Shown: piece by piece, positions 3,112-20,341 of the stretch
How positions within the stretch are numbered: the first letter of the stretch is position 1
Layout of the letters: each line of letters opens with the position of its first letter
The notes under the pieces: generated by a model
Database searches by the model: none
What the model was told of the DNA's origin: nothing
Seen by the model: only the letters and a program-made list of their open reading frames with translations
Source: a virus
Length of the DNA stretch: 20,498 nucleotides
IMG/VR virus record: IMGVR_UViG_3300042914_001141
Coordinates: 1-20,498 of that record
Reading direction: 5' to 3' (one strand)
Program-made: the position numbers and the translations under genes

Positions 3112-4222
<1,111 letters not shown>

Positions 4223-4231
4223 ACTTCTCGT

Positions 4232-5302
4232 ATGAAAGTCGCTGTCTACACAATAGCCAAGAATGAAGAGCAATTTGTCAAACGGTGGTACGAGTGCAGT
4301 ACCGAAGCAGACTATCACGTCATTGCAGATACTGGATCAACAGATAGAACGGTTGAACTCGCCAGAGAACTCGGTATCGACACGTATAGCATCAGCGTTC
4401 TGCCTTTTAGGTTTGATGATGCACGGAACGCTTCCTTAGCGCTAGTCCCTGCTGACGCAGACTACTGCATCGCTTTGGATATGGATGAAGTTCTCCAGCC
4501 AGGGTGGAGGCAGGAGTTAGAGCGGGCCTTTGAAGAAGGCACCGACAGACCTCAGTACCGATTCATTACGGACTGGACAGCGGCAGGAGAGCCTGCCATA
4601 GAGTTTGATGGATTCCGTATCCATAGACGCCAAGGCGTTAGGTGGAAGTATCCCATCCACGAAGTCCCTATGACCTACGAAGGTGGGGACGTACGCAAAC
4701 GCTACAACTTTGAAGTCCACCACAGACCCGATGTTACGAAGTCACGTGGTCAGTATCTAGACCTGCTACGCAGGGCGGTGGATGAAGAGCCTGATGCGAG
4801 GAACCTCTACTACTTAGGCAGAGAGTTGTTCTTCCGTAAGGCTTACGATGACTGTGCGAAGGTCATCAAGGAGTACATCACTAAGTCTAACTTTCCGGCA
4901 GAGAAATCTTTTGCGCTACGGATGCTCGCTAAGTGCGAGCCTGATAGGGCAGAGGAATGGCTACTGCAGGCAACCGAAGCCTGCCAGACCCGCGAAGCGG
5001 TCTTGGCTTTGGCTAACCACTACTACACACAGAAGCAGTGGAAAGAGTGCAACTACACCGCGAAGTTGGCACTGACGAAAACTGAGAAGGTCACAGGCTT
5101 CCTATCGGAAGAGTGGGCTTGGGGCCATATGGCAGATGATCTGGTTGCAGTCTCAGCGTGGCAGTTAGGCAACTGGAAAGAAGCCTATAAGCACGGGAAG
5201 ATCGCACTAGGTATCAGTCCTGAAGATGAGCGACTAGCGAACAATGTCGTATTTTATGAGCAGAAGTTGAAGGAAGCAACTGCCAAGAAGAAACGGAAGT
5301 AG
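4232..5302 (+). CDS. Family 2 glycosyltransferase with TPR-like C-terminal region
   Basis: A 356-aa protein. The N-terminal GT-A domain shows the GT2 opening YTIAKNEEQFVKRW (7-19), the nucleotide-sugar motif DTGSTDRT (33-40), DDARN (62-66) and the metal-binding LDMDE (82-86). An F-R-I-H-R segment and IHEVPM (about 142-147) are typical of SunS-like/TPR-associated GT2 enzymes. From about residue 190 it is helical with repeat-like units (NLYYLGRELFFRKAYDDCAK, LANHYYTQKQWKECNYTAKL), as in TPR-linked protein glycosyltransferases, and it ends in KKKRK. It probably transfers a sugar from a nucleotide donor onto a protein. It sits between a Thr-rich collagen-like protein and the putative adaptor, so a virion protein is the best substrate candidate. 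Substrate and sugar are unknown. Confidence 0.88.
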   Translation: MKVAVYTIAKNEEQFVKRWYECSTEADYHVIADTGSTDRTVELARELGIDTYSISVLPFRFDDARNASLALVPADADYCIALDMDEVLQPGWRQELERAFEEGTDRPQYRFITDWTAAGEPAIEFDGFRIHRRQGVRWKYPIHEVPMTYEGGDVRKRYNFEVHHRPDVTKSRGQYLDLLRRAVDEEPDARNLYYLGRELFFRKAYDDCAKVIKEYITKSNFPAEKSFALRMLAKCEPDRAEEWLLQATEACQTREAVLALANHYYTQKQWKECNYTAKLALTKTEKVTGFLSEEWAWGHMADDLVAVSAWQLGNWKEAYKHGKIALGISPEDERLANNVVFYEQKLKEATAKKKRK

Positions 5303-9009: not shown

Positions 9010-9879
9010 ATGACAATCAGCAGTTTGAGAACGGGTGAGATCACCAACACGATGAACGCTGGCAACTACTGCGATGTCCTCGTCATTGCCGGTGGCGGTG
9101 GGGGTGGCTATGACCAGGGTGGCGGTGGTGGCGCTGGTGGCTATCGCGCCTTCGATAAGTTTGGCATTGCCAATGGCGTTACTTACACTCTTACAGTTGG
9201 TGCAGGTGGTGCTGGTCGCACATCAAGTGGTGCCGTTGGTTCTTCTGGTTCAAACAGTGTGTTTTTTGGTGTTGCAACAACTGGCGGAGGCGGTGGCGGT
9301 TCTGACGGAAGCACAACAGGAGCCAATGGTGGCTCAGGTGGCGGAGGTCGTGGAGGAACTACAACAGGCGGAACTGGTAATGCTGGCTCCTATTCACCCG
9401 TAGAAGGTTTCAACGGTGGAAATGGACAAGGTTCGTCGCCATCACCATCACGCGGAGGTGGCGGTGGAGGTGCATCCGAAGCAGGAAACACAGATGGCAA
9501 CGGCGAAGGTGGAGATGGAACTTCGTCATCAATTACTGGCTCAGCAGTAAGCCGAGCAGGTGGTGGAGGTGGTGGCAATCCTGGCGTGTCTTTGGTTTAT
9601 GGCGGAGGCACTGGTGGTGGTGGAACTGGTGGACGAGATAGCGTGAATGCAACTGCTGGCACTGTCAACACTGGAAGCGGTGGTGGAGGCGGCGGTGGAG
9701 GTGGTGGAACGCTCTCCGGCGCAGCAGGCGGCTCAGGCATCGTCATCCTTGCCTACCCACAACAGTTCCCACCTTTGGCATCTATCGATGCAGGTCTGAC
9801 TTATTCCTACTCAACCACATCACGATCAGGATTCCGTGTCTATCAATTCACAGCAGGAACAGGGACGGTGAAGTTCTAA
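9010..9879 (+). CDS. Poly-glycine adhesin-like fibre protein 1
   Basis: A 289-aa protein. Residues 1-18 carry the tag MTISSLRTGEITNTMNAG; then VLVIAGGGGGG opens a Gly-rich region of about 210 residues with runs of up to nine Gly, followed by GIVILAYPQQFPPLAS and a C-terminal beta end (GLTYSYSTTS...FTAGTGTVKF). This is the glycine-rich domain pattern of phage tips whose loops form polyglycine-II sandwiches, as known for the receptor-binding tip gp38 of phage S16. It is probably a receptor-recognition protein, with the non-Gly loop residues giving specificity. Its stop overlaps the next ATG (TAATG). Confidence 0.75.
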   Translation: MTISSLRTGEITNTMNAGNYCDVLVIAGGGGGGYDQGGGGGAGGYRAFDKFGIANGVTYTLTVGAGGAGRTSSGAVGSSGSNSVFFGVATTGGGGGGSDGSTTGANGGSGGGGRGGTTTGGTGNAGSYSPVEGFNGGNGQGSSPSPSRGGGGGGASEAGNTDGNGEGGDGTSSSITGSAVSRAGGGGGGNPGVSLVYGGGTGGGGTGGRDSVNATAGTVNTGSGGGGGGGGGGTLSGAAGGSGIVILAYPQQFPPLASIDAGLTYSYSTTSRSGFRVYQFTAGTGTVKF

Positions 9880-10820
9880 TGGCAGTCGTCAGTCTCAAGA
9901 ACAAAGTCAAGAGCAGGTCTGTTCTGGCGGGTAATCCACAAACTATTCTTGTTGATTTTCTTGTCATCGCTGGTGGAGGTGGTGGCGGAAGACAAATTGG
10001 AGGCGGTGGCGGAGCCGGTGGTTATCGCTGTTCCGTATCTGGCGAATCGTCCGGTGGTGGTGCATCTGCAGAATCACCATTGCCAATAGTGCTTGGTTCC
10101 TCTTTCACGGTAACTGTTGGAGCATCTGGTTCTGGTTCAACCTCAACCTCCTCAAGAGGTTCTAACGGAACAAACTCAGTTTTTTCATCTATTACCTCAA
10201 CTGGAGGTGGTGGAGGTGGAAGCGATGGAGCAGGTGTTCAGTCAGGAGCAAGCGGTGGTTCTGGCGGTGGTTCTTTGGGTGGTCCTGGTGTAAGTAATCC
10301 AGATGGAGAAAGAACAGTAAATCAAGGTTACAACGGTGCTGGAAACTTCACCAATGGTTCTGGTGCTGGTGGCGGAGGTGGTGGAGCAGGTTCTGAAGGT
10401 CAACCTCAAAGTGGTGATACCCTAAATGGTCAAGGTGGTAACGGGGGCGATGGAGTTGCGTCATCAATCACCGGTTCTTCTGTAACAAGAGCAGGTGGTG
10501 GTGGTGGTGGTGGACAATCTGGTATTTCTGGAAGAACTGGTGGCACCGGAGGAACCGGCGGTGGAGGAAATGGCAGTGGAAATAGCACTGCTGGAGCAAA
10601 TGGAACCAGTAACACCGGTTCCGGCGGAGGTGGTGGTGGCTTTCAATCAACTGCTGGAAATGGTGGAAACGGTGCAAGCGGAATTGTTATCCTTCGTTAT
10701 CCATCAACATTTTCCATCTCTGGTGGAACCGGACTCACTTTCTCAACCTCAACTTCCGGCTCTAACAAAGTAACCTCATTCACTGCTGGAACCGGCAGCA
10801 TTTCATTCACGGCAGTATAG
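9879..10820 (+). CDS. Poly-glycine adhesin-like fibre protein 2
   Basis: A 313-aa paralogue of the preceding protein, with the same architecture: N-terminal tag (MAVVSLKNKVKSRSVLAGNP), FLVIAGGGGGG, a Gly-rich body with motifs GGGGAGGYR and SSITGSSVTRAGGGGGGG, GIVILRYPSTF, then GLTFSTSTSG and FTAGTGSISF. The shared VIAGGGGGG, SSITGS(A/S)VSRAGGGG and FTAGTG blocks show duplication, while the loop segments differ throughout, as expected if the copies bind different receptors. Its start overlaps the previous stop by one base, so the two are co-translated. No frameshift or truncation is seen. Confidence 0.75.
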   Translation: MAVVSLKNKVKSRSVLAGNPQTILVDFLVIAGGGGGGRQIGGGGGAGGYRCSVSGESSGGGASAESPLPIVLGSSFTVTVGASGSGSTSTSSRGSNGTNSVFSSITSTGGGGGGSDGAGVQSGASGGSGGGSLGGPGVSNPDGERTVNQGYNGAGNFTNGSGAGGGGGGAGSEGQPQSGDTLNGQGGNGGDGVASSITGSSVTRAGGGGGGGQSGISGRTGGTGGTGGGGNGSGNSTAGANGTSNTGSGGGGGGFQSTAGNGGNGASGIVILRYPSTFSISGGTGLTFSTSTSGSNKVTSFTAGTGSISFTAV

Positions 10821-13448: not shown

Positions 13449-13652
13449 ATGACCCCTACTGAATGGGCTGGCCTTGCCGTCGCCATATTCACCCTGATAT
13501 CGGGTTTCGCAGCCCTTGTTCGCTGGTTAGTCAAGCACTATCTCAACGAACTCAAGCCGAACGGGGGGTCAAGTATCAAGGACAAAGTGAACCACCTCGA
13601 AGAGAAGGTGGACCTACTAACTGATCTCGTCAAGGAAGCGTTGAGGAAATGA
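13449..13652 (+). CDS. Holin-like small membrane protein 1
   Basis: A 67-aa protein with AGGAG before its ATG. Residues 6-27 (WAGLAVAIFTLISGFAALVRWL) form one membrane helix, followed by a charged coiled-coil segment (IKDKVNHLEEKVDLLTDLVK). This layout matches single-span phage holins and small membrane proteins encoded beside endolysins. The endolysin gene starts immediately after its stop. It probably forms or controls the membrane lesion in lysis; which of the two membrane proteins is the holin cannot be decided from sequence. Confidence 0.65.
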   Translation: MTPTEWAGLAVAIFTLISGFAALVRWLVKHYLNELKPNGGSSIKDKVNHLEEKVDLLTDLVKEALRK

Positions 13653-14123
13653 ATGATCCCATTAGCGAAGAGACCCAGCAATGCTGCCGTCGCCCTGTTG
13701 CGACAGGCCAATGCTCTTGCTCCGAAAAGGAAGAAGGCGAGCGATGGACTACTTCCTTCTGCTGCTCACGTCAAGCAGAATCCGAATAGCGACCACAACT
13801 CAGGCCACGCTGTCGACCTGACTCACGATCCCAAGAACAGGATGGATTGCAGGGTCCTCTATGACGCCTTCAAGAACGACAAGCGCGTCAAGTATCTGAT
13901 ATTCAATGGCAAGATTTGGTCTCGTAGTAGGGGTGAGAATACCTACGGTGGGGCCAACAAGCACGAGAAGCACCTGCATATCTCGATCTACCCAGAGTAT
14001 GAGAACGACACCTCTGACTGGTTCCCTTGGCTCGATGGGCCTAAGAGGTGGGACAGGGTGAAGAGTAGATTCATTAGAGTAAAGCGCAAGAAGAAAGACC
14101 CCACCAGTCCAAAGGAGGACTAA
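13653..14123 (+). CDS. Endolysin, M15-type peptidase (VanY/DD-peptidase fold)
   Basis: A 156-aa enzyme predicted to cut peptide cross-links of the host peptidoglycan. It carries the M15 zinc motif SxHxxGxAxD as SDHNSGHAVD (46-55), giving ligands H48 and D55, and HLH at 107-109 supplies the third ligand (H109). YLIFNGKIWSR (81-91) and the Y-x-G-x-N-K-H segment (98-104) fit phage members of the family. It lacks a separate wall-binding domain; its C-terminus (KSRFIRVKRKKKDP) is strongly basic and may bind anionic wall polymers. No signal peptide, so export depends on a holin. It lies between two holin-like genes, the second overlapping its stop (TAATG). Confidence 0.85.
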   Translation: MIPLAKRPSNAAVALLRQANALAPKRKKASDGLLPSAAHVKQNPNSDHNSGHAVDLTHDPKNRMDCRVLYDAFKNDKRVKYLIFNGKIWSRSRGENTYGGANKHEKHLHISIYPEYENDTSDWFPWLDGPKRWDRVKSRFIRVKRKKKDPTSPKED

Positions 14124-14317
14124 TGAAGGTAAACGAACAACTCAAGCAGGTAGCACTGACCTGGTTCCGAGCCGCTGCTGCTGCAGCGATTGCTCTGTTC
14201 CTAGCAGGAGAGACTGACCTCAAGACGCTTGGACTAGCAGCCTTGACAGGCTTCCTTGGACCAGCACTGAAGTACCTTGATACCTCTGCTCCAGAGTTTG
14301 GACGCAAGAAGAAGTAG
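14123..14317 (+). CDS. Holin-like small membrane protein 2
   Basis: A 64-aa protein whose ATG overlaps the endolysin stop. A hydrophobic stretch (FRAAAAAAIALFLAG, 15-29) is followed by a short polar turn (ETDLK) and a second apolar segment (LGLAALTGFLGPALKYL), so one or two membrane passes are possible. It ends EFGRKKK. The pattern (N-E-Q-L-K...R...A-G-x-T-D-x-K...P-x-L-K/R-Y) is common in actinophage holin-like proteins. It is the last gene of the late operon, and a strong terminator follows 22 bases after its stop. Confidence 0.65.
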   Translation: MKVNEQLKQVALTWFRAAAAAAIALFLAGETDLKTLGLAALTGFLGPALKYLDTSAPEFGRKKK

Positions 14318-14339: not shown

Positions 14340-14377
14340 GGCCCTCATCACCGAAAGGTGGTGGGGGCCTCTTTTTT
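14340..14377 (+). terminator. Intrinsic terminator of the late operon
   Basis: A 13-bp stem (14340-14352 with 14357-14369), with two G-U wobbles and a GAAA tetraloop, followed by TC and six T (14372-14377). It is GC-rich, very stable and sits directly after the last late gene, so it should end plus-strand late transcription. Confidence 0.92.
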
Positions 14378-14476: not shown

Positions 14477-14719
14477 TTAGCGGAGGTCGTCTGATGATTT
14501 GTCTACGGGGCAGGGAACCGTGACGATATTGCCACAACTGGCACAGGTGGCATCCAGAAAGTACCAGACCAGTTCATAGTCCTCGAAGCAGGCCATCACA
14601 TTGAATACTTCACAGCCACACGAGCAGACGTGGACTGGGCCAAGGGATCGTAGGTCAGCACCGTGAACGGGTGGTAGGCTGTCTCTGTTTTTCAACAGCC
14701 GGAGTAGACGGAACCACAT
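14477..14719 (-). CDS. Minus-strand zinc-ribbon protein
   Basis: This is the only convincing minus-strand gene in the window. The 80-aa protein starts at ATG 14719 (MWFRLLRLLKNRDSLPPVHG); an earlier in-frame ATG at 14767 lies upstream of the AGGAGG ribosome site (14740-14735), so the later start is preferred although the spacing is long (15 bases). The core is HVCSCGCEVFNVMACFEDYE (30-49) and YFLDATCASCGNIVTVPCP (53-71): C32/C34/C36 with C59/C62 make a zinc ribbon like those of small actinophage proteins of unknown role. It has its own promoter candidate at 14818-14845 and converges on the late operon. It may be a regulator or a host-directed factor. Confidence 0.75.
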   Translation of the reverse strand: MWFRLLRLLKNRDSLPPVHGADLRSLGPVHVCSCGCEVFNVMACFEDYELVWYFLDATCASCGNIVTVPCPVDKSSDDLR

Positions 14720-14734
14720 TGCTCGGCACGGCTC

Positions 14735-14740
14735 CCTCCT
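14735..14740 (-). promoter_or_regulatory. Shine-Dalgarno AGGAGG of the minus-strand gene
   Basis: On the minus strand a perfect AGGAGG precedes ATG 14719 by 15 bases. It lies downstream of the alternative ATG at 14767, and so argues against that longer start. Confidence 0.5.
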
Positions 14741-14777
14741 GTGGTCGGTCGCCTCTCGGCCTTCCACCTATCGGCCT

Positions 14778-14817: not shown

Positions 14818-14845
14818 ATTATAGCGATTCCATTGGGAGTGTCGC
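14818..14845 (-). promoter_or_regulatory. Minus-strand promoter candidate
   Basis: Reading the minus strand there is a perfect -10 TATAAT at 14823-14818 and a -35-like GCGACA at 14845-14840 with a 16-base spacer. The start would fall near 14811, giving a leader of about 90 bases to ATG 14719. The -35 overlaps one arm of the inverted repeat at 14839-14856. Confidence 0.5.
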
Positions 14846-14856
14846 TGGCGCGACAC
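14839..14856. promoter_or_regulatory. Inverted repeat, operator candidate between divergent genes
   Basis: GTGTCGC (14839-14845) and GCGACAC (14850-14856) are perfect inverted repeats with a four-base centre. The site overlaps the -35 of the minus promoter and lies 15 bases upstream of the -10-like box for the early operon. A dyad here could let one protein control both directions; the binder is unknown. Confidence 0.45.
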
Positions 14857-14870
14857 GCCGTAAGGTGGTG

Positions 14871-14876
14871 TAAATT
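14871..14876 (+). promoter_or_regulatory. -10-like box of the early operon, probable leaderless start
   Basis: TAAATT at 14871-14876 lies eight bases before ATG 14885, so a transcript would begin at or just before the start codon. No Shine-Dalgarno sequence is at usual distance (the nearest, AAGGTGG, is about 18 bases upstream). Leaderless mRNAs are frequent in Actinobacteria. No clear -35 is seen. Confidence 0.4.
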
Positions 14877-14884
14877 ATGTACCT

Positions 14885-15454
14885 ATGACCACACTTGTAG
14901 GGATACAGACAGCAACGAGTGTAGTGCTGGCTGCTGATAGCCAAATCACCGAAGATAATCTCCGCTCCATTGCATTGTCCACGCCCAAGATTGTAGAGGT
15001 TGGTCGGTATCTATTGGGCATCACGGGCGATACACGCCCTGGAGATATCTTGACCTATAACTGGAGACCGCCTGCTCCAAAGTATGGCGATGATCCCATC
15101 GTCTTTATGGGCAGGAAGGTTATCCCTTCCATCGTCAACACTTTCAGGGAACATAACTACGACTTCAACGAGGCACTCAAGGACAAGGACTCTGGGTTTG
15201 ATTACCTACTGGCCTTCAATGGAAATCTCTTTCACGTGGCCTGCGATCTATCGTTCTTCCAGTCCCAGTACGGAGCCTACGCAATCGGCTCCGGTGGGCA
15301 GTTCGCGCTGGGCTACCTCTACTCACAGGTCAAAGGCAACGCCATACCCTTCACACGGGCTGATCAGATAGCGAAACGCGCCATTGAAATCGCGTCGGTG
15401 CTTGACGTCAATACAAGCCTGCCCTTACAGTTGGTGGTACAGGAGAGGAATTGA
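14885..15454 (+). CDS. HslV/proteasome-like Ntn-hydrolase
   Basis: A 189-aa protein matching the HslV/20S proteasome beta fold. It starts M-T-T, so Met removal would expose Thr as the N-terminal nucleophile. VVLAADSQ (13-20) holds the conserved Asp (D18), STPKIVEVG (32-40) the catalytic Lys (K35), LLGITGDT (43-50) the GxxxG-like turn, and AYAIGSGGQFALGYL (131-145) the HslV-type SGG loop (136-138). ADQIAKRAIEIAS resembles the helix after it, and LDVNT parallels a late HslV segment. The length is close to bacterial HslV (about 175). Residues of about 55-75 form a small insertion. No unfoldase is seen here, so it may use a host ATPase or act alone on small substrates. It is first in the early operon. 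Confidence 0.85.
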   Translation: MTTLVGIQTATSVVLAADSQITEDNLRSIALSTPKIVEVGRYLLGITGDTRPGDILTYNWRPPAPKYGDDPIVFMGRKVIPSIVNTFREHNYDFNEALKDKDSGFDYLLAFNGNLFHVACDLSFFQSQYGAYAIGSGGQFALGYLYSQVKGNAIPFTRADQIAKRAIEIASVLDVNTSLPLQLVVQERN

Positions 15455-15455
15455 T

Positions 15456-15665
15456 ATGGCAGGTTGGCATAGGGACCCATATACCGTCTACATCAATAGG
15501 TCAAGCCCACGTAACTTTGGTCTTGGCTTTGATAGATACCAAGAACTTGATGACTATGGTTACATCATATTGGCTGACTCACTAGCCTTGAACTTTATAT
15601 TCTTCAACATTACAATTACCCGATGGAGGGAAGACGCAGTATGGAAGACATCAAAACGTTCTTAG
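15456..15665 (+). CDS. Small protein, unknown function
   Basis: A 69-aa protein from ATG 15456, preceded by AGGAGAGGAA (about 15441-15450). It is rich in aromatic residues (WHRDPYTVYINRSSP, NFGLGFDRYQELDDYGYIIL, FIFFNITITRW) with an alternating pattern that suggests beta-strands, but no recognised domain. It overlaps the nuclease gene by 25 bases. Several phages encode short proteins of this type near early promoters; no function can be assigned. Confidence 0.55.
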   Translation: MAGWHRDPYTVYINRSSPRNFGLGFDRYQELDDYGYIILADSLALNFIFFNITITRWREDAVWKTSKRS

Positions 15666-16585
15666 TGCAGGCACTGCACGACAAAGAGAACTCCAGGCCA
15701 CGCAGTACTCAGGTCCAGATAGGACCATCAGAGTTAGGTGGTTGCCGTCGTAGGGTGTGGTATCGGCTCAACAACCAGCCAGAGACCAACGAGCAAGAAC
15801 TAAAACTTGCCGCTATTATGGGAACAGCGATTCACGGAGCGATTGAAGAGGCGCTTAGCAAGCGAGACGATTTGCTGATAGAGACCACCGTCGAGTATGG
15901 TGGGATGAAGGCACACGTCGATCTCTTCATACCTGAAACGGGCGACGTGGTTGACTGGAAAACAACTAAATATAAGAACCTCTCGTACTTTCCTAGCCAG
16001 CAACAACGCTGGCAGGTACAGGTCTATGGTTACTTGATTGAGAAGTCTGGCAAGGGGAAGGTCAGTCGAGTCAATCTTGTAGCCATACCTCGTGATGGTG
16101 ATGAGCGTGACATCAAAGTCCACTCGGAAGCCTACGACGAGAAAGTAGCGTTAGAGGCTTTGTCGTGGTTAGAAGCCATCAAAGCCTCTGACGTTGCACC
16201 AGAACCAGAGCGTGATGAGTCTTACTGTAAGTTCTACTGCAAGTACTACGACGCCTCTGGGGAGATGGGATGCGTTGGTCTAAAAAAAGAACGTACAAAA
16301 ACTGAACAACCACCCATAGATAATCCTGAAATAGACTTACGAGCGCTTGAGTATCTTCAAGTTGATAAGGAGATCACAAGACTCGTGGCTAGGAAGGAAG
16401 CGCTCAGAGATGTATTCGCTGGGCTTACAGGTCTGACTCAATCGGGTATCGATATTCGATGGAGTACAGTACAGAATAATACCGTCGACAAGGAAGCAGT
16501 GGAGAAAGCACTAGGCTTCGTGCCGACAAAGCAAGGAAAGGAAAGCGCAAGGCTTTCAATCAAACTAATTACTGGAGGAATATAA
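15641..16585 (+). CDS. Cas4/RecB-type PD-(D/E)XK exonuclease with four-Cys cluster
   Basis: A 314-aa protein from ATG 15641, preceded by GGAGGG; an upstream in-frame ATG at 15623 lacks a ribosome site. Motifs appear in order: GGCRRRVWYRL (33-43, first Cys C35), MGTAIHGAIEEAL (60-72, H65), AHVDLFIPETGDVVDWKTTK (91-110, D94, D105, K107), QVQVYGYL (125-132), and CKFYCKYYDASGEMGC (196-211), giving C196, C200 and C211. One N-terminal and three C-terminal Cys are the 4Fe-4S arrangement of Cas4 and AddB-like nucleases. A C-terminal region of about 100 residues follows. It probably resects DNA ends for phage recombination or replication, or degrades host DNA. No cas1/cas2 or CRISPR is nearby. Confidence 0.85.
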   Translation: MEDIKTFLVQALHDKENSRPRSTQVQIGPSELGGCRRRVWYRLNNQPETNEQELKLAAIMGTAIHGAIEEALSKRDDLLIETTVEYGGMKAHVDLFIPETGDVVDWKTTKYKNLSYFPSQQQRWQVQVYGYLIEKSGKGKVSRVNLVAIPRDGDERDIKVHSEAYDEKVALEALSWLEAIKASDVAPEPERDESYCKFYCKYYDASGEMGCVGLKKERTKTEQPPIDNPEIDLRALEYLQVDKEITRLVARKEALRDVFAGLTGLTQSGIDIRWSTVQNNTVDKEAVEKALGFVPTKQGKESARLSIKLITGGI

Positions 16586-16586
16586 A

Positions 16587-16976
16587 ATGGCTGCACCCGA
16601 TACAACGAAGTTCCAGGTGAACTTCAAGTTGGCTGACGGAACACTCGTCAACATCTATGCGCAGGACTCTACTGAACTAGAGACCTCGCTTACTACGATT
16701 CAAGATACGGCGTCGTTGATCCACAGTGTGAGTCAATCTTTGGGAAGCGCTCCGCAAACTGGGGGATACCGTCGTAGTTTCGTACCAAAGTCCGACACAC
16801 CAGTGGCACAACCAGCATCTACCGAATCACCAGCAGTAGTTGAAGGACAGTCACCGAGTTGTAAGCACGGCGTTATGACCTACCGTACTGGTACGTCAGC
16901 GCGTGGACCTTGGAAGGGTTGGATGTGTGCTGCGCCAAAGGGTGCAGTAGACAAGTGCCAGACCATCTGGGCGTAA
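16587..16976 (+). CDS. Zinc-binding protein paired with the nuclease, unknown function
   Basis: A 129-aa protein with GGAGGA before its ATG. It has an N-terminal beta domain (FQVNFKLADGTLVNIYAQDS), a disordered Pro/Ser/Thr linker (about 62-90) and a C-terminal zinc motif: CKHGVMTYRTGTSARGPW (C92, H94), GWMCAAPKG (C114) and DKCQTIW (C124). This C-x-H...C...C module is frequent in small actinophage proteins downstream of RecB-like nucleases. It may bind single-stranded DNA beside the nuclease; that is inference from its place in the operon. It starts one base after the nuclease stop. Confidence 0.7.
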   Translation: MAAPDTTKFQVNFKLADGTLVNIYAQDSTELETSLTTIQDTASLIHSVSQSLGSAPQTGGYRRSFVPKSDTPVAQPASTESPAVVEGQSPSCKHGVMTYRTGTSARGPWKGWMCAAPKGAVDKCQTIWA

Positions 16977-16979
16977 ACC

Positions 16980-17294
16980 GTGAGGGGGCCAAGAGATTTC
17001 GAGGCCCCACTCTGCGCTCAAACTGACCCAGAAGCGTTCTTTCCAGAGAAGGGTCACACACCTCCGCGCTCTGTCAAAGAGACTTGCTTTCGGTGTGAAC
17101 ATCAAGTTGAGTGTGCTGAATGGGGCTTGAAGCACGAAAGGTTTGGGATATGGGGCGGTCTTACTGAGAGGCAACGTCGCGTCATTCGCCGACAAAGAAA
17201 CATAGTTGTAGATCATATTCCAGTGGAGGTGTTCATTGCTAAAACTATCCCGCGCTTGGGGGACAGTAACAACCAAAGCAACACCACTACCTGA
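16980..17294 (+). CDS. WhiB-family iron-sulfur transcription factor
   Basis: A 104-aa protein with the WhiB signature: C12, then C36-x-x-C39 and C45 (TCFRCEHQVECAEWGL) to hold a 4Fe-4S cluster, D16-P-E-A-F-F after the first Cys, the GIWGG turn (56-60) and a basic tail (ERQRRVIRRQR). WhiB proteins bind the sigma factor and redirect transcription. Phage copies, such as TM4 WhiB, can interfere with host WhiB function. It starts at GTG 16980, three bases after the previous stop and without a clear ribosome site, so it is coupled. The last 20 residues overlap the next gene. This is the strongest sign of an actinobacterial host. Confidence 0.9.
   Translation: MRGPRDFEAPLCAQTDPEAFFPEKGHTPPRSVKETCFRCEHQVECAEWGLKHERFGIWGGLTERQRRVIRRQRNIVVDHIPVEVFIAKTIPRLGDSNNQSNTTT
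17225..17230 (+). promoter_or_regulatory. Shine-Dalgarno GGAGGT deciding the TTG start of the helicase gene
   Basis: GGAGGT lies five bases before TTG 17236, inside the 3' end of the WhiB gene. This strong site is the main reason for accepting the rare TTG start. Confidence 0.65.
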
Positions 17295-18075
17295 AGTCTG
17301 GAAGGACCTTACCAAACAAGACATTAGATTTCGCAGGGGTCAGGTTTGTATGATTGCTGCAGCGCCTAACGCTGGCAAATCAATGCTTGCTTTGGTCTAT
17401 GCAATCAGGGCAGGTATACCGACACTTTTCTTCTCTGCTGATACTGACACGGCAACCGTAATGCTAAGGACCGCAGCAGCGGTCTCTGGTCATTCACAGT
17501 TGACCGTCGAGCAACAGTTAGACCGTGACCCTAGAGCCTACGCTGATGCGATGAGACAGGCTGAACATATCCAGTGGGTCTTTGACTCTTCACCAAGTCT
17601 TGATGATATCGAGATGGAAGTGAAGGCATACCTTGAACTCTATGGTGAGATGCCACAACTTATCGTCATAGACAATTTGATGAATGTTGTCTCAGAGTCA
17701 GACAATGAGTGGGCAGGGCTTCGAGCGATTATGGCAGAACTGCACGATATGGCTCGCAAGACTGAGGCCTGTGTGATGGTCTTGCACCACGTCTCAGAGG
17801 CGTCAGAGTACGGCTCACCTGAGATGCCACCACCACGTCGGGCTATTCACGGCAAGGTCTCACAGTTACCAGCAATGATCTGCACCCTGGGCTATGACCC
17901 TATGAACAGAACTTTGAGGGTAGCCGCTGTCAAGAATCGCTTTGGAAAACACACTGCCAATGGAAGCGAATGGGCTACCTTTTCGGTAAACTTTGCTTCG
18001 TGTCAGATAGAACCAGCCGATAGCGAAGTAGGTCGTATGTTCTACAGAGATGCTCTACACGAGAGTAGAAAATGA
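17236..18075 (+). CDS. DnaB/RepA-like RecA-fold ATPase, putative replicative helicase
   Basis: A 279-aa protein from TTG 17236. The Walker A is APNAGKS (43-49; Ala replaces the usual first Gly), FFSADTD (65-71) follows strand 2, Walker B is LIVIDNL (142-148), and a VMVLHHVSE strand and a late VAAVKNRFGKH segment match motif H3/H4 regions of DnaB-type helicases. It lacks the N-terminal primase-binding domain of bacterial DnaB and is about 280 residues, the size of RepA/gp4-core helicases. It probably unwinds DNA at the phage fork with the primase genes downstream. It overlaps WhiB by 59 bases and the next gene by four (ATGA). It could also be a RecA-like recombination ATPase. Confidence 0.8.
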   Translation: MLKLSRAWGTVTTKATPLPEVWKDLTKQDIRFRRGQVCMIAAAPNAGKSMLALVYAIRAGIPTLFFSADTDTATVMLRTAAAVSGHSQLTVEQQLDRDPRAYADAMRQAEHIQWVFDSSPSLDDIEMEVKAYLELYGEMPQLIVIDNLMNVVSESDNEWAGLRAIMAELHDMARKTEACVMVLHHVSEASEYGSPEMPPPRRAIHGKVSQLPAMICTLGYDPMNRTLRVAAVKNRFGKHTANGSEWATFSVNFASCQIEPADSEVGRMFYRDALHESRK

Positions 18076-18764
18076 ACGCGAACCTTGTCATCATCCCTAC
18101 ACGTGGTAGGCCAGAGAGCGCTGAACGCGCTGTCACCTACCTCAAGGAACACAGCAGGGTTTCTGACATTGTGCTTGGTCTTGATGAGGATGACGAGCAT
18201 AACTATCCGAGGCTTGATGGTGTGATGTATGAGGTAGGTCCACGTGAATATATGATTGCTACTCTCAACAAGATAGCGATGAAGTATGTTGATAACTACC
18301 TCTTCTTCACCTTCTTGGGTGATGACAACATCGTGACCACCGAAGGGTGGGATGTGGCTATGTCTGTCACCTTAGGCAAGCGCGGATACGGCATTGCCTA
18401 CGGCAACGATATGTTGCAAGGGGACAAGTTGCCTACCTCAGTAATGGTGACAACCAATGTCGTCAAGGCGCTGGGGTTTATGGCTCCGCCACAACTCAAG
18501 CATCTCTACGCTGATAACTTCTGGCAGGTATTAGGCAGAGGCTTGGGTTCCTACTATTACTTTCCCAGCGTGTACTGGGAGCATCTGCACTTCATCAATG
18601 GAAAGGCAGAGAAGGATGTCATCTACGCAGAGGCTAACTCCAAGGATCGCTACCTCAAAGATCGTAAGGCCTTTGAGAAGTATATGAAGAAGCATTATGT
18701 CAATGATGTGCTTAGGGTCAAGGAGGCGTTAGGTGTCAACCTACAACAAGACCAAGGGGACTAA
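18072..18764 (+). CDS. GT-A fold glycosyltransferase in the replication module
   Basis: A 230-aa protein with GT2-like signs: VIIPTRGRPESAERAV (6-21), the metal-site candidate LDEDDE (37-42), ATLNKIAMKYVDNYLFF (63-79) and FLGDDN (81-86) with GWDVAM following, the pattern of a nucleotide-sugar site. W-E-H-L-H-F (about 170) may be an active-site loop. It is distinct from the enzyme at 4232 and has no TPR region. It lies between a helicase and a Holliday-junction-type nuclease, overlapping both, so it is expressed with DNA-replication genes. That suggests glycosylation of phage DNA or of a host early target. Substrate unknown; T4 DNA glucosyltransferases have another (GT-B) fold. Confidence 0.8.
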   Translation: MNANLVIIPTRGRPESAERAVTYLKEHSRVSDIVLGLDEDDEHNYPRLDGVMYEVGPREYMIATLNKIAMKYVDNYLFFTFLGDDNIVTTEGWDVAMSVTLGKRGYGIAYGNDMLQGDKLPTSVMVTTNVVKALGFMAPPQLKHLYADNFWQVLGRGLGSYYYFPSVYWEHLHFINGKAEKDVIYAEANSKDRYLKDRKAFEKYMKKHYVNDVLRVKEALGVNLQQDQGD

Positions 18765-19083
18765 GTTCGAGACGGATGTGATGAAGTACCTGCGCTCGCT
18801 AGGCCACTTCGTTGAGCGCCTTGCCAAGGCTGGGGCCAATGACGAGGGTGACCTCGTTGCCATAGTCGCAGGTCAGACCTATGTTCTGGAACTCAAAAAC
18901 CGTAAGAAGATTGATCTGCCTGCCTTCTGGAGCGAAGCGCAGGTGGAAGCCGAGAACTATGCGAAGGCTCGTGGACTCGCCTCTAGCCCACCTGCCTTCG
19001 TCATAGTCAAACGTAGGAACGCATCAATAGAGAGGGCGTGGGTCATCCAGCCTTTGGAGAACTGGGCAAAGGAGAAGGAATGA
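18733..19083 (+). CDS. Holliday-junction-resolvase-type PD-(D/E)XK nuclease
   Basis: A 116-aa protein from GTG 18733, with GGAGG (18722-18726) upstream, overlapping the previous gene by 32 bases. It shows the archaeal Hjc/VRR-like layout: KGTKFETDVMKYLRSLG (8-24, E13), ANDEGDLVAI (35-44, D40) and VLELKNRKK (51-59, the E-x-K motif E53/K55), then Q70 in a helix. It probably resolves or trims branched DNA during replication and packaging. Small size and lack of other domains are normal for the group. Its stop overlaps the next ATG (ATGA). Confidence 0.8.
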   Translation: MSTYNKTKGTKFETDVMKYLRSLGHFVERLAKAGANDEGDLVAIVAGQTYVLELKNRKKIDLPAFWSEAQVEAENYAKARGLASSPPAFVIVKRRNASIERAWVIQPLENWAKEKE

Positions 19084-19283
19084 ACACGCTTCAGTATTCT
19101 ATTACGTGTAATTGCGGAATAACGATTATTGGAAACTCTGAAAAGGGGTTAGTGGAACTTGTCAAACTGCATAACGAGAGTGGCAGATGGCATCTAATGT
19201 GGAAAAACTATTACAACATTATTCAAAAGACAGAGATAGAAGAAAGAATAGAAAGGGAGAACAGTGCCAACACCACAGGGTGA
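19080..19283 (+). CDS. Small CxCG protein, unknown function
   Basis: A 67-aa protein from ATG 19080, overlapping the nuclease stop, with GGAG and AAGGA just upstream. It starts MNTLQYSITCNCGITIIGNS, where C10 and C12 with G13 look like half of a zinc site, then EKGLVELVKLHNESGRWHLM, which may supply His residues. The tail is polar and charged. Small proteins of this kind occur in actinophage early operons; no function is known. Confidence 0.6.
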   Translation: MNTLQYSITCNCGITIIGNSEKGLVELVKLHNESGRWHLMWKNYYNIIQKTEIEERIERENSANTTG

Positions 19284-19416
19284 TATCACCAGTAGCAATA
19301 TATGGAGCCAGCCAGAAGAGGAGAGTCAAGATGATTTGTCAACCGTGCCAGACAGCGGGGGAATTGAACAGCCAGCAGAAGATCAAGGAAGCGACGAAAC
19401 TACACAAGAAGTGTAA
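19264..19416 (+). CDS. Small acidic ORF, uncertain
   Basis: A 50-aa ORF from GTG 19264, preceded by GGGAG at good distance. The product (MPTPQGDITSSNIWSQPEEE, then SQDDLSTVPDSGG and the end GSDETTQEV) is acidic and probably disordered. It is in the same frame as the primase zinc gene, which begins ten bases after its TAA, so suppression of that single stop would join the two. It overlaps the Cys-rich ORF at 19331 by 86 bases. Real but unknown, or a decayed N-terminal part; support is limited to the ribosome site and spacing. Confidence 0.45.
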   Translation: MPTPQGDITSSNIWSQPEEESQDDLSTVPDSGGIEQPAEDQGSDETTQEV

Positions 19417-19504
19417 GGATTGCGAATGTCAACACAAGACTGGAACAGGGTGGTTCGTTCGAAAGGGAGAAAAGGTAGGTCTGCATCAAACGCAATCTCC
19501 ATAG
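19331..19504 (+). CDS. Cys/His-rich zinc protein, nested across two other ORFs
   Basis: A 57-aa ORF from ATG 19331, with GGAG seven bases upstream (19320-19323). The product MICQPCQTAGELNSQQK, then KLHKKCKDCECQHKTGTGW, has C-x-x-C, H, C-x-x-C-x-C and H, with the CQHKTG ending typical of small actinophage zinc proteins. It occupies another frame than the acidic ORF (overlap 86 bases) and the primase gene (overlap 79 bases). The motif density is unlikely by chance. The start at ATG is preferred over a frame opening further upstream at 19187, which has no support. Confidence 0.6.
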   Translation: MICQPCQTAGELNSQQKIKEATKLHKKCKDCECQHKTGTGWFVRKGEKVGLHQTQSP

Positions 19505-19803
19505 AGGTTATCGTTTCCCACTACGGCGGTGAGGTCAGGCAGGGCCGAGCCGCTTCGGTCAAGTGTTGTATTCACGACGACTCCAGACGGAGTGCAGTCA
19601 TCAACACCTACGACAACCTGTACTTCTGCCACACGTGCGGTAAGGGCGGGTCAGCAATAGATGTGATAATGGAAAAAGAGGGGTTAGGGTACAAAGATGC
19701 AGTCAGCCGTGCAGACGAGATCATTGTTGGAAGCGGTGGTGAGGTACAGTCAAAGCCTCGACGAGGCAACCGTAGCGTATCTCGAAGGACGTGGTATATC
19801 TAA
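19426..19803 (+). CDS. Primase zinc-finger (CHC2) protein
   Basis: A 125-aa protein from ATG 19426, with AAGGA upstream. It carries a DnaG CHC2-type zinc finger: CCIHDDSRRSAVINTYD (C47 and H50), then YFCHTCGKGGSAIDVI (C68 and C71). VIVSHYGGEV before it is the usual lead-in. The zinc domain recognises template sites for primer synthesis. The catalytic TOPRIM part is in the next, overlapping gene, so this phage has a split primase. The tail KPRRGNRSVSRRTWYI is basic and may be out-of-frame read into the next gene. Confidence 0.85.
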   Translation: MSTQDWNRVVRSKGRKGRSASNAISIEVIVSHYGGEVRQGRAASVKCCIHDDSRRSAVINTYDNLYFCHTCGKGGSAIDVIMEKEGLGYKDAVSRADEIIVGSGGEVQSKPRRGNRSVSRRTWYI

Positions 19804-20341
19804 GGAAGTGGCCGAGCAGATGACGCTCGGCACAGTTGTTGACCCAGCAGAGGGTCATCAAGATTATGTGGGCTGGCTATCCATTCCCTACATAACAGCG
19901 ATGGGCCACTGCGTAGCGGTGAAGTTTCGTCGCATTGACGATGGCAAGCCGAAGTATGGCCAACCTACTGGACAGAAGGCGCACCCATACAATGTGTCCG
20001 ACATTCTCGTTGAGTCACCATTCGTGGTGGTCTGTGAGGGTGAGTTGGATGCGATCATCTTGTCGTCCATTGTGGGTATCCCAGCGGTAGGTATTCCTGG
20101 AGTGCAGGCGTGGAAGCCACACTTTGCCAAGTTATTCACTGGCTATGAGGTTGTCTATGTCGTAGGTGATAACGACGTGAAAGAAGATGGCACAAACCCA
20201 GGGGCAGAGTTCGCTCGGCGTGTCCAGCACGAACTCACAAATGGGGTTATAGTAACATTACCACCCAATACGGACATCAATGAATACTACTTGTCCAATG
20301 GGCCTGACGAACTACGGAAACTATTTGGAGGAGTGAAGTGA
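19697..20341 (+). CDS. Primase TOPRIM-domain protein
   Basis: A 214-aa protein in another frame than the zinc gene, overlapping it by 107 bases if ATG 19697 is used (AGGG at 19686-19689 upstream). A GTG at 19736 or 19739 is also possible, because recognisable homology begins near SLDEATVAYLEGRGISKEVA. The TOPRIM core is FVVVCEGELDAI (109-120, E114) and VVYVVGDND (152-160, D158/D160), with PAVGIPGVQAWK between. W-L-S-I-P-Y and VKFRRIDDGKPKYG are the usual N-terminal strands. It should form the primer-synthesising half of the primase with the zinc protein, and works with the helicase at 17236. Confidence 0.85.
   Translation: MQSAVQTRSLLEAVVRYSQSLDEATVAYLEGRGISKEVAEQMTLGTVVDPAEGHQDYVGWLSIPYITAMGHCVAVKFRRIDDGKPKYGQPTGQKAHPYNVSDILVESPFVVVCEGELDAIILSSIVGIPAVGIPGVQAWKPHFAKLFTGYEVVYVVGDNDVKEDGTNPGAEFARRVQHELTNGVIVTLPPNTDINEYYLSNGPDELRKLFGGVK

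Follow-up and report, generated by a model that had tools for sequence, protein, structure and literature searches.

A proteasome-family Ntn hydrolase gene at the head of the replication operon in a clade of probable actinobacterial phages

Introduction

What would a virus digest with a proteasome-like peptidase if it carries no unfoldase? This question is raised by a gene in a viral DNA stretch of 20,498 nt (IMG/VR record IMGVR_UViG_3300042914_001141, positions 1 to 20,498; hereafter the window), in which an initial annotation made from the sequence had recognised an HslV/proteasome-like N-terminal-threonine (Ntn) hydrolase heading an early operon. Group I of the proteasome homologues comprises HslV, BPH, AAH, CPH and PPH, and both PPH and AAH occur in phages, where a co-occurring AAA+ partner was not found (PMC8665760). 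In the papers searched, which did not include Ghai et al. 2017, no freshwater actinophage was credited with a proteasome gene. Here we examine the identity of the gene, its surroundings and its homologues, and weigh what its product may do during infection.

Results

An intact proteasome-family active site

We found that the product of ORF 14885-15454 matches the Pfam Proteasome family (PF00227; E 2.4e-7, 31 bits against a curated cut-off of 22.4) and, over residues 1-187, the PHROG 1040 profile 'peptidase HslV family' (E 2e-23). That it is a proteasome-family Ntn hydrolase, and that its active site is intact, is confirmed. Once Met is removed, T2 of the ORF would become Thr1 and G48 mature Gly47, and a Met-Thr start fits Met aminopeptidase. 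In the viral alignment T2, T3, D18, K35 and G48 are unchanged in all 164 IMG/VR homologues, and residue 136, within the GSGG loop that spans residues 135-138, is S or T in each of the 163 rows that have this column. Even among very divergent phage homologues (n = 16), D18 and K35 are invariant, while T2 is T in 15 and S in one. T2, D18, K35 and the S136-G-G loop lie where the initial annotation had placed them, and T2, D18 and K35 are also in register with BPH, as described below. By codon comparison the gene is under strong purifying selection, with a dN/dS of 0.06-0.21 in the 12 computable pairs.

Predicted structure and family placement

The AlphaFold monomer model, built from 25 homologues, reached a pLDDT of 88.2 and a pTM of 0.85. 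Its best structural match is Td-BPH (Z 20.3, rmsd 2.6, 173 residues, 25% identity), with HslV and the 20S beta subunits at Z about 19, that is, only about 1 lower. Residue 2 of the model superposes on Thr1 (chain residue 1) of these structures, and the profile of the protein aligns with Cm-BPH from end to end, at 22-25% identity and with T2, D18 and K35 in register. The Thr1-Asp17-Lys33 geometry on which the initial annotation had staked its reading is favoured by the conservation and, at the level of a predicted model, by the fold superposition.

BPH (PDB 5ovs, 5ovt, 5ovu) resembles the phage protein in its fold, in the Thr1-Asp-Lys register, in its compact subunit and in being without a known unfoldase; it has an exposed Thr1 and was found with epoxomicin bound (PMC5777263). 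BPH differs in being bacterial, in its 22-25% identity and in its long acidic pore loop; loop 90-104 of the phage protein, HNYDFNEALKDKDSG, holds four acidic and two lysine residues. The tetradecameric double ring is likewise a feature of BPH, whereas the phage protein was modelled as a monomer.

The likeness to HslV (ClpQ) consists of the fold and of weak matches to the two NCBIfam HslV equivalogs used (NF003964 and TIGR03692), which gave 28.1 bits against a cut-off of 137 and 26.1 bits against 157.75. The proteasome-family Ntn part of the original label stands on PF00227, PHROG 1040 and the fold, but 'HslV' is too specific: the scores lie far under the NCBI cut-offs, searches of the window and of 15 related, possibly incomplete records yielded no AAA+ unfoldase, an HslU-type AAA_2 gene included, and the top structural match is BPH. 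PPH is rejected, since PPH has about 140 residues and lacks helix H2, whereas the phage protein has 189 residues with helices at 51-59 and 71-89.

Overall, the protein is a group I (HslV/BPH/AAH-like) proteasome homologue, of a kind already known (PHROG 1040; PMC8665760). With AAH, PPH and CPH it shares group I membership and phage carriage, and no AAA+ partner was found for any of them. The actinophage branch to which it belongs has a full-length profile match (E 1.7e-28) to an AAH-like set, in which Streptomyces, Sinorhizobium, Paraburkholderia and Bacillus plasmid proteins are pooled with divergent phage proteins, but the tree sets the branch apart from these proteins (moderate support, 90/75). 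By sequence, the branch lies beside AAH-like proteins and would be either AAH or a further subfamily. The tree holds only one true HslV (L185), because a PF00227 search of G036 found nothing. A scan of genome contigs with a family alignment yielded a single partial match, to a proteobacterial MAG, and a class-wide profile search around this MAG gave weak matches in 6 of 71 genomes.

Search for an unfoldase and for partner subunits

The initial annotation had stated that the window contains no unfoldase gene, and AAA and AAA_2 searches bear this out. When the search was extended beyond the window, as had been proposed, we found no AAA or AAA_2 unfoldase in 15 related clade records of up to 40.6 kb, which are fragments or classed as linear and possibly incomplete, so that an unfoldase may still lie elsewhere in the genome; the AAA_2 search gave matches in 14 of 14 control genomes. 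A PF00004 match in an E7-like genome (G017; E7 is described below) was rejected as an unfoldase since it coincides with the DnaB-like helicase, and we take the similar 260-aa PF00004 matches in its relatives to be this helicase gene too.

A partner alpha subunit was not found either: the Ntn gene is the sole PF00227 gene in the phage record, with no second proteasome-family gene. The PrcB model TIGR03690 gave no match to the window's protein at E 10, and a single match among 25 relatives (E 0.002).

The control region upstream of the gene

We next describe the intergenic region, the features of which are collected in Table 1. The inverted repeat GTGTCGCTGGCGCGACAC at 14839-14856 had 0 matches in 100 shuffles and occurs once in the window and once in each of three long clade genomes. 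Across related loci, for which the counts are not independent, the GACACGCCG part of the repeat lies at -27 to -35 in 77 of 79, a TAnnnT motif starts at -11 to -14 of the ATG in 75 of 79, and a Shine-Dalgarno sequence is absent before this ATG in 77 of 79; GGAGG-like sites precede the next operon genes (the exonuclease and the gp49-like gene). The TAnnnT spacing and the absent Shine-Dalgarno fit a leaderless mRNA, and in the window's clade the transcript probably is leaderless, starting at or near the ATG. The description of the ORF as the first gene from the control region is supported by the late terminator, the unique inverted repeat and the leaderless -10 hexamer.

The E7-like genome G017 has a GCGACACGCCG half-site (about 32908, minus strand) in its gap between lysis and exonuclease genes, a place without the Ntn gene; the element therefore belongs to the control region and not to the Ntn gene. 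The product of the divergent gene is zinc-ribbon-like by eye and has no family name, and E7-like phages encode stretches 37-44% identical to it, about 9 kb from their Ntn gene.

Table 1. Features around the Ntn hydrolase gene, in window coordinates
Feature	Position	Strand	Remarks
Lysis-like genes: holin-like small membrane protein, M15-type-like endopeptidase, small membrane protein	13449..14317	+	Named from sequence and position; PHROG of unknown function
Intrinsic terminator closing the late (lysis) operon	14340..14369	+	13 pairs and a T run
Small divergent cysteine-rich gene	14477..14767	-	Other side of the control region; clade-conserved
Inverted repeat GTGTCGC-TGGC-GCGACAC plus GCCG	14839..14860	+	Single copy; probably an operator or an upstream element of the promoter
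TAAATT, probable -10 hexamer of a leaderless promoter	14871..14876	+	8 nt upstream of the ATG
Proteasome-like Ntn hydrolase, 189 aa, ATG start	14885..15454	+	T2 nucleophile, D18, K35, oxyanion G48, loop G135-S136-G137
Small ORF directly downstream of the Ntn gene	15456..15665	+	Unknown function; in part of the clade
Cas4/RecB-like PD-(D/E)XK exonuclease	15623..16585	+	Next conserved operon gene
L5/D29 gp49-like protein	16587-16976	+	Actinophage marker
WhiB regulator	16980-17294	+	Actinophage marker
Replication genes: DnaB-like helicase, glycosyltransferase-like, RusA-like resolvase, primase	17236..20341	+	

Gene neighbourhood and probable host

When comparing gene order up to the contig ends, we find that one order recurs in the clade, with a few loci lacking a member: holin, endopeptidase-like gene, divergent gene, Ntn gene, exonuclease, gp49-like gene, WhiB, helicase, RusA and primase. 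Among helicase-anchored loci with enough upstream sequence, the Ntn gene is kept in 55 of 55. Phage records with a related helicase (n = 1451) carry names of almost wholly actinobacterial hosts, the best being E7 and F5. These helicase relatives and the WhiB gene in the operon agree with the actinobacterial host assumed at the outset, and we infer such a host for the window's phage. Elsewhere in the window, we observe a collagen-like protein with a GPTGPTG repeat (3449-4222), a protein that is glycosyltransferase-like by eye (4232-5302) and two adjacent glycine-rich tail-fibre-like proteins (9010-10820); the gene at 18072-18764 matches PHROG 14945, glycosyltransferase.

Homologues in other phages

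A viral pattern search returned at least 586 relatives among the 600 matches listed. Named homologues include those of the Planktophila phages LanE43AprE7 and F5, of Actinomycetia phage DSL-LC01 and of many larger phages, and homologues were also found in phages of Vibrio, Escherichia, Bacillus-type and other hosts. The 'ATP-dependent protease subunit' of DSL-LC01 (OQ999401) is 32% identical and is directly followed by a WhiB gene, but this is a 129-kb phage with another surrounding gene order; its AAA gene was rejected as a partner, lying about 10 kb off beside a gene annotated as cobalamin biosynthesis. In Aeromonas phage 2L372X (L090), the neighbouring gp211 and gp001 are both annotated as 'peptidase HslV family', possibly a two-subunit arrangement.

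This spread of hosts bears on whether the phage subunit might interfere with host proteolysis, by co-assembling with or blocking the host 20S proteasome or its ATPases. Such interference would suit an actinobacterial host, the early-type gene position in the window's clade and the finding of neither a phage alpha subunit nor a phage unfoldase. However, a pure poison would have no need of the complete catalytic set, which is conserved; the homologues extend to phages of the other hosts just named and PrcB similarity is negligible; we regard interference as improbable.

Position behind the portal and relocation

The phages E7 and F5 infect 'Ca. Planktophila' LanE-43, the host on which they were isolated, and the main text describing them names no proteasome-like gene (PMC10202952). 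E7/F5-like phages share related terminase, portal, coat, helicase and lysis genes with the window's phage, and the homologues of E7 and F5 (OX376640, OX376641) are 31-32% identical to the window's protein with the same active site. They differ in their placement: the E7/F5 homologue begins at most about 35 nt from the portal gene and has a GGGG-type Shine-Dalgarno, whereas the window's gene is at the replication-operon head and probably leaderless. The E7/F5 portal was recognised from its homology (42-45%) to the portal annotated in Streptomyces phage Dennebes. Across 80 portal-anchored loci, the Ntn gene lies behind the portal in 66 and is absent in 11 with enough sequence, the remaining 3 being too short. 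The tree places the window's clade as sister to a post-portal type (L290/L302; support 96/86), and from its nesting among post-portal types, a move from the structural module to the replication operon appears the likelier direction.

A place directly behind the portal, in the structural operon and with a Shine-Dalgarno, is the classical slot of a head protease, and together with the tree it suggests a virion-assembly or head-maturation protease that trims the coat, the scaffold or the giant protein by the portal and that changed its place in the window's clade. Against this, three long E7/F5-group records (30.5-39.9 kb) contain no Ntn gene anywhere, with positive controls in the same search, and the two of these Ntn-less records examined keep the portal at 86%, the scaffold at 66% and the coat at 68% identity, the coat being kept from its first residue. 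Streptomyces Beephvirinae phages with a related coat likewise gave no match to the Ntn protein, and in the window's clade the gene stands outside the structural module. We rejected an obligatory head-maturation protease since the same portal, scaffold and coat exist without the Ntn gene; such an obligatory role is unlikely, and a head protease of any kind has a low probability. The major capsid protein (335-1264 and relatives) occurs in both phage groups in a short form of 309-314 aa and a long form of 393-399 aa, the latter with an insert of about 80 aa.

These loci also bear on the timing of expression. The initial annotation had proposed that the gene is probably expressed soon after infection and could act on host factors, a claim now weakened: the nearest homologues by tree lie behind the portal, with a Shine-Dalgarno in E7/F5, so that an early takeover of the host is not a property of the family. 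The operon-head and possibly early position holds for the window's clade only, in which an early host-directed role is possible, although the protein family does not imply it.

The absence of the gene from some E7/F5-group relatives could also point to a neutral passenger without function, but the low dN/dS, the invariant active site and the retention at all informative clade loci make this extremely improbable.

The post-portal slot sits at the left border of a variable stretch, which also encodes giant proteins and probably is the 8-kb island described for E7/F5 (PMC10202952). The identity of the Ntn protein is low between phages with near-identical portals; swapping of alleles of this gene alone was rejected, as the next gene and the giant protein are at least as variable. 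The giant proteins (about 1000-1900 aa; L195:10566-15716 and counterparts) are hypervariable despite 85-97% portal identity, and a family search gave no domain above cut-off, only PHROGs and families of unknown function.

Discussion

On balance, we lean with modest confidence towards a catalytically competent HslV/BPH-like threonine peptidase that works without an unfoldase or with a host ATPase, that probably forms a double ring and that stands at the operon head in the window's clade. Removal of Met1 would expose the Thr at ORF residue 2 as the nucleophile, assisted by Asp18 and Lys35, and by analogy with BPH the subunits probably form a barrel of two rings that encloses the active sites. 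Either no dedicated AAA+ unfoldase would be needed or a host unfoldase would be borrowed; Met removal, ring assembly, proteolysis and ATP independence are what we infer for this protein. In the window's clade, a leaderless promoter of its own would drive it as the opening gene of the replication operon. During infection it may cut peptides, unfolded chains or a small number of particular proteins from host or phage. The most likely role is that of an accessory, self-compartmentalising peptidase that either is independent of ATP or has the help of the host.

Neither BPH nor Anbu acted on standard substrates (PMC5777263), and an intact active site therefore does not guarantee general proteolysis; for the same reason a narrow substrate range of the phage peptidase is plausible. 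This inertness would also suit an Ntn enzyme that does not degrade proteins, for example a specific protein ligase, a transpeptidase or an amidase, and connectase shows that the fold can act as a ligase (PMC8665760). The 189-aa phage protein, however, shows no connectase-type insertion between strands S3 and S4, and its best matches are BPH, HslV and 20S beta; we hold a non-degradative enzyme to be unlikely compared with the accessory peptidase.

A more speculative extension, to which we assign only a small probability, is that a distinct actinophage branch represents an unfoldase-free viral proteasome acting on proteins made by the phage or injected. Its substrates in the Planktophila phages would be the adjacent giant variable proteins, and in the window's clade, where the gene would have moved under the operon-head promoter, host or incoming virion proteins.

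Phage proteasome homologues are already known from sequence surveys, and nearly all of the close relatives examined have retained the actinophage branch. Its related genes occur in phages of some of the most abundant freshwater bacteria, and the conserved active site, the retention, the probable own promoter and the two cultivated 'Ca. Planktophila' phages with their host make the question of function testable. In the survey of AAH, no Actinobacteria-specific phage with AAH was found (PMC8665760); if the branch proves to be AAH, it would fill this gap.
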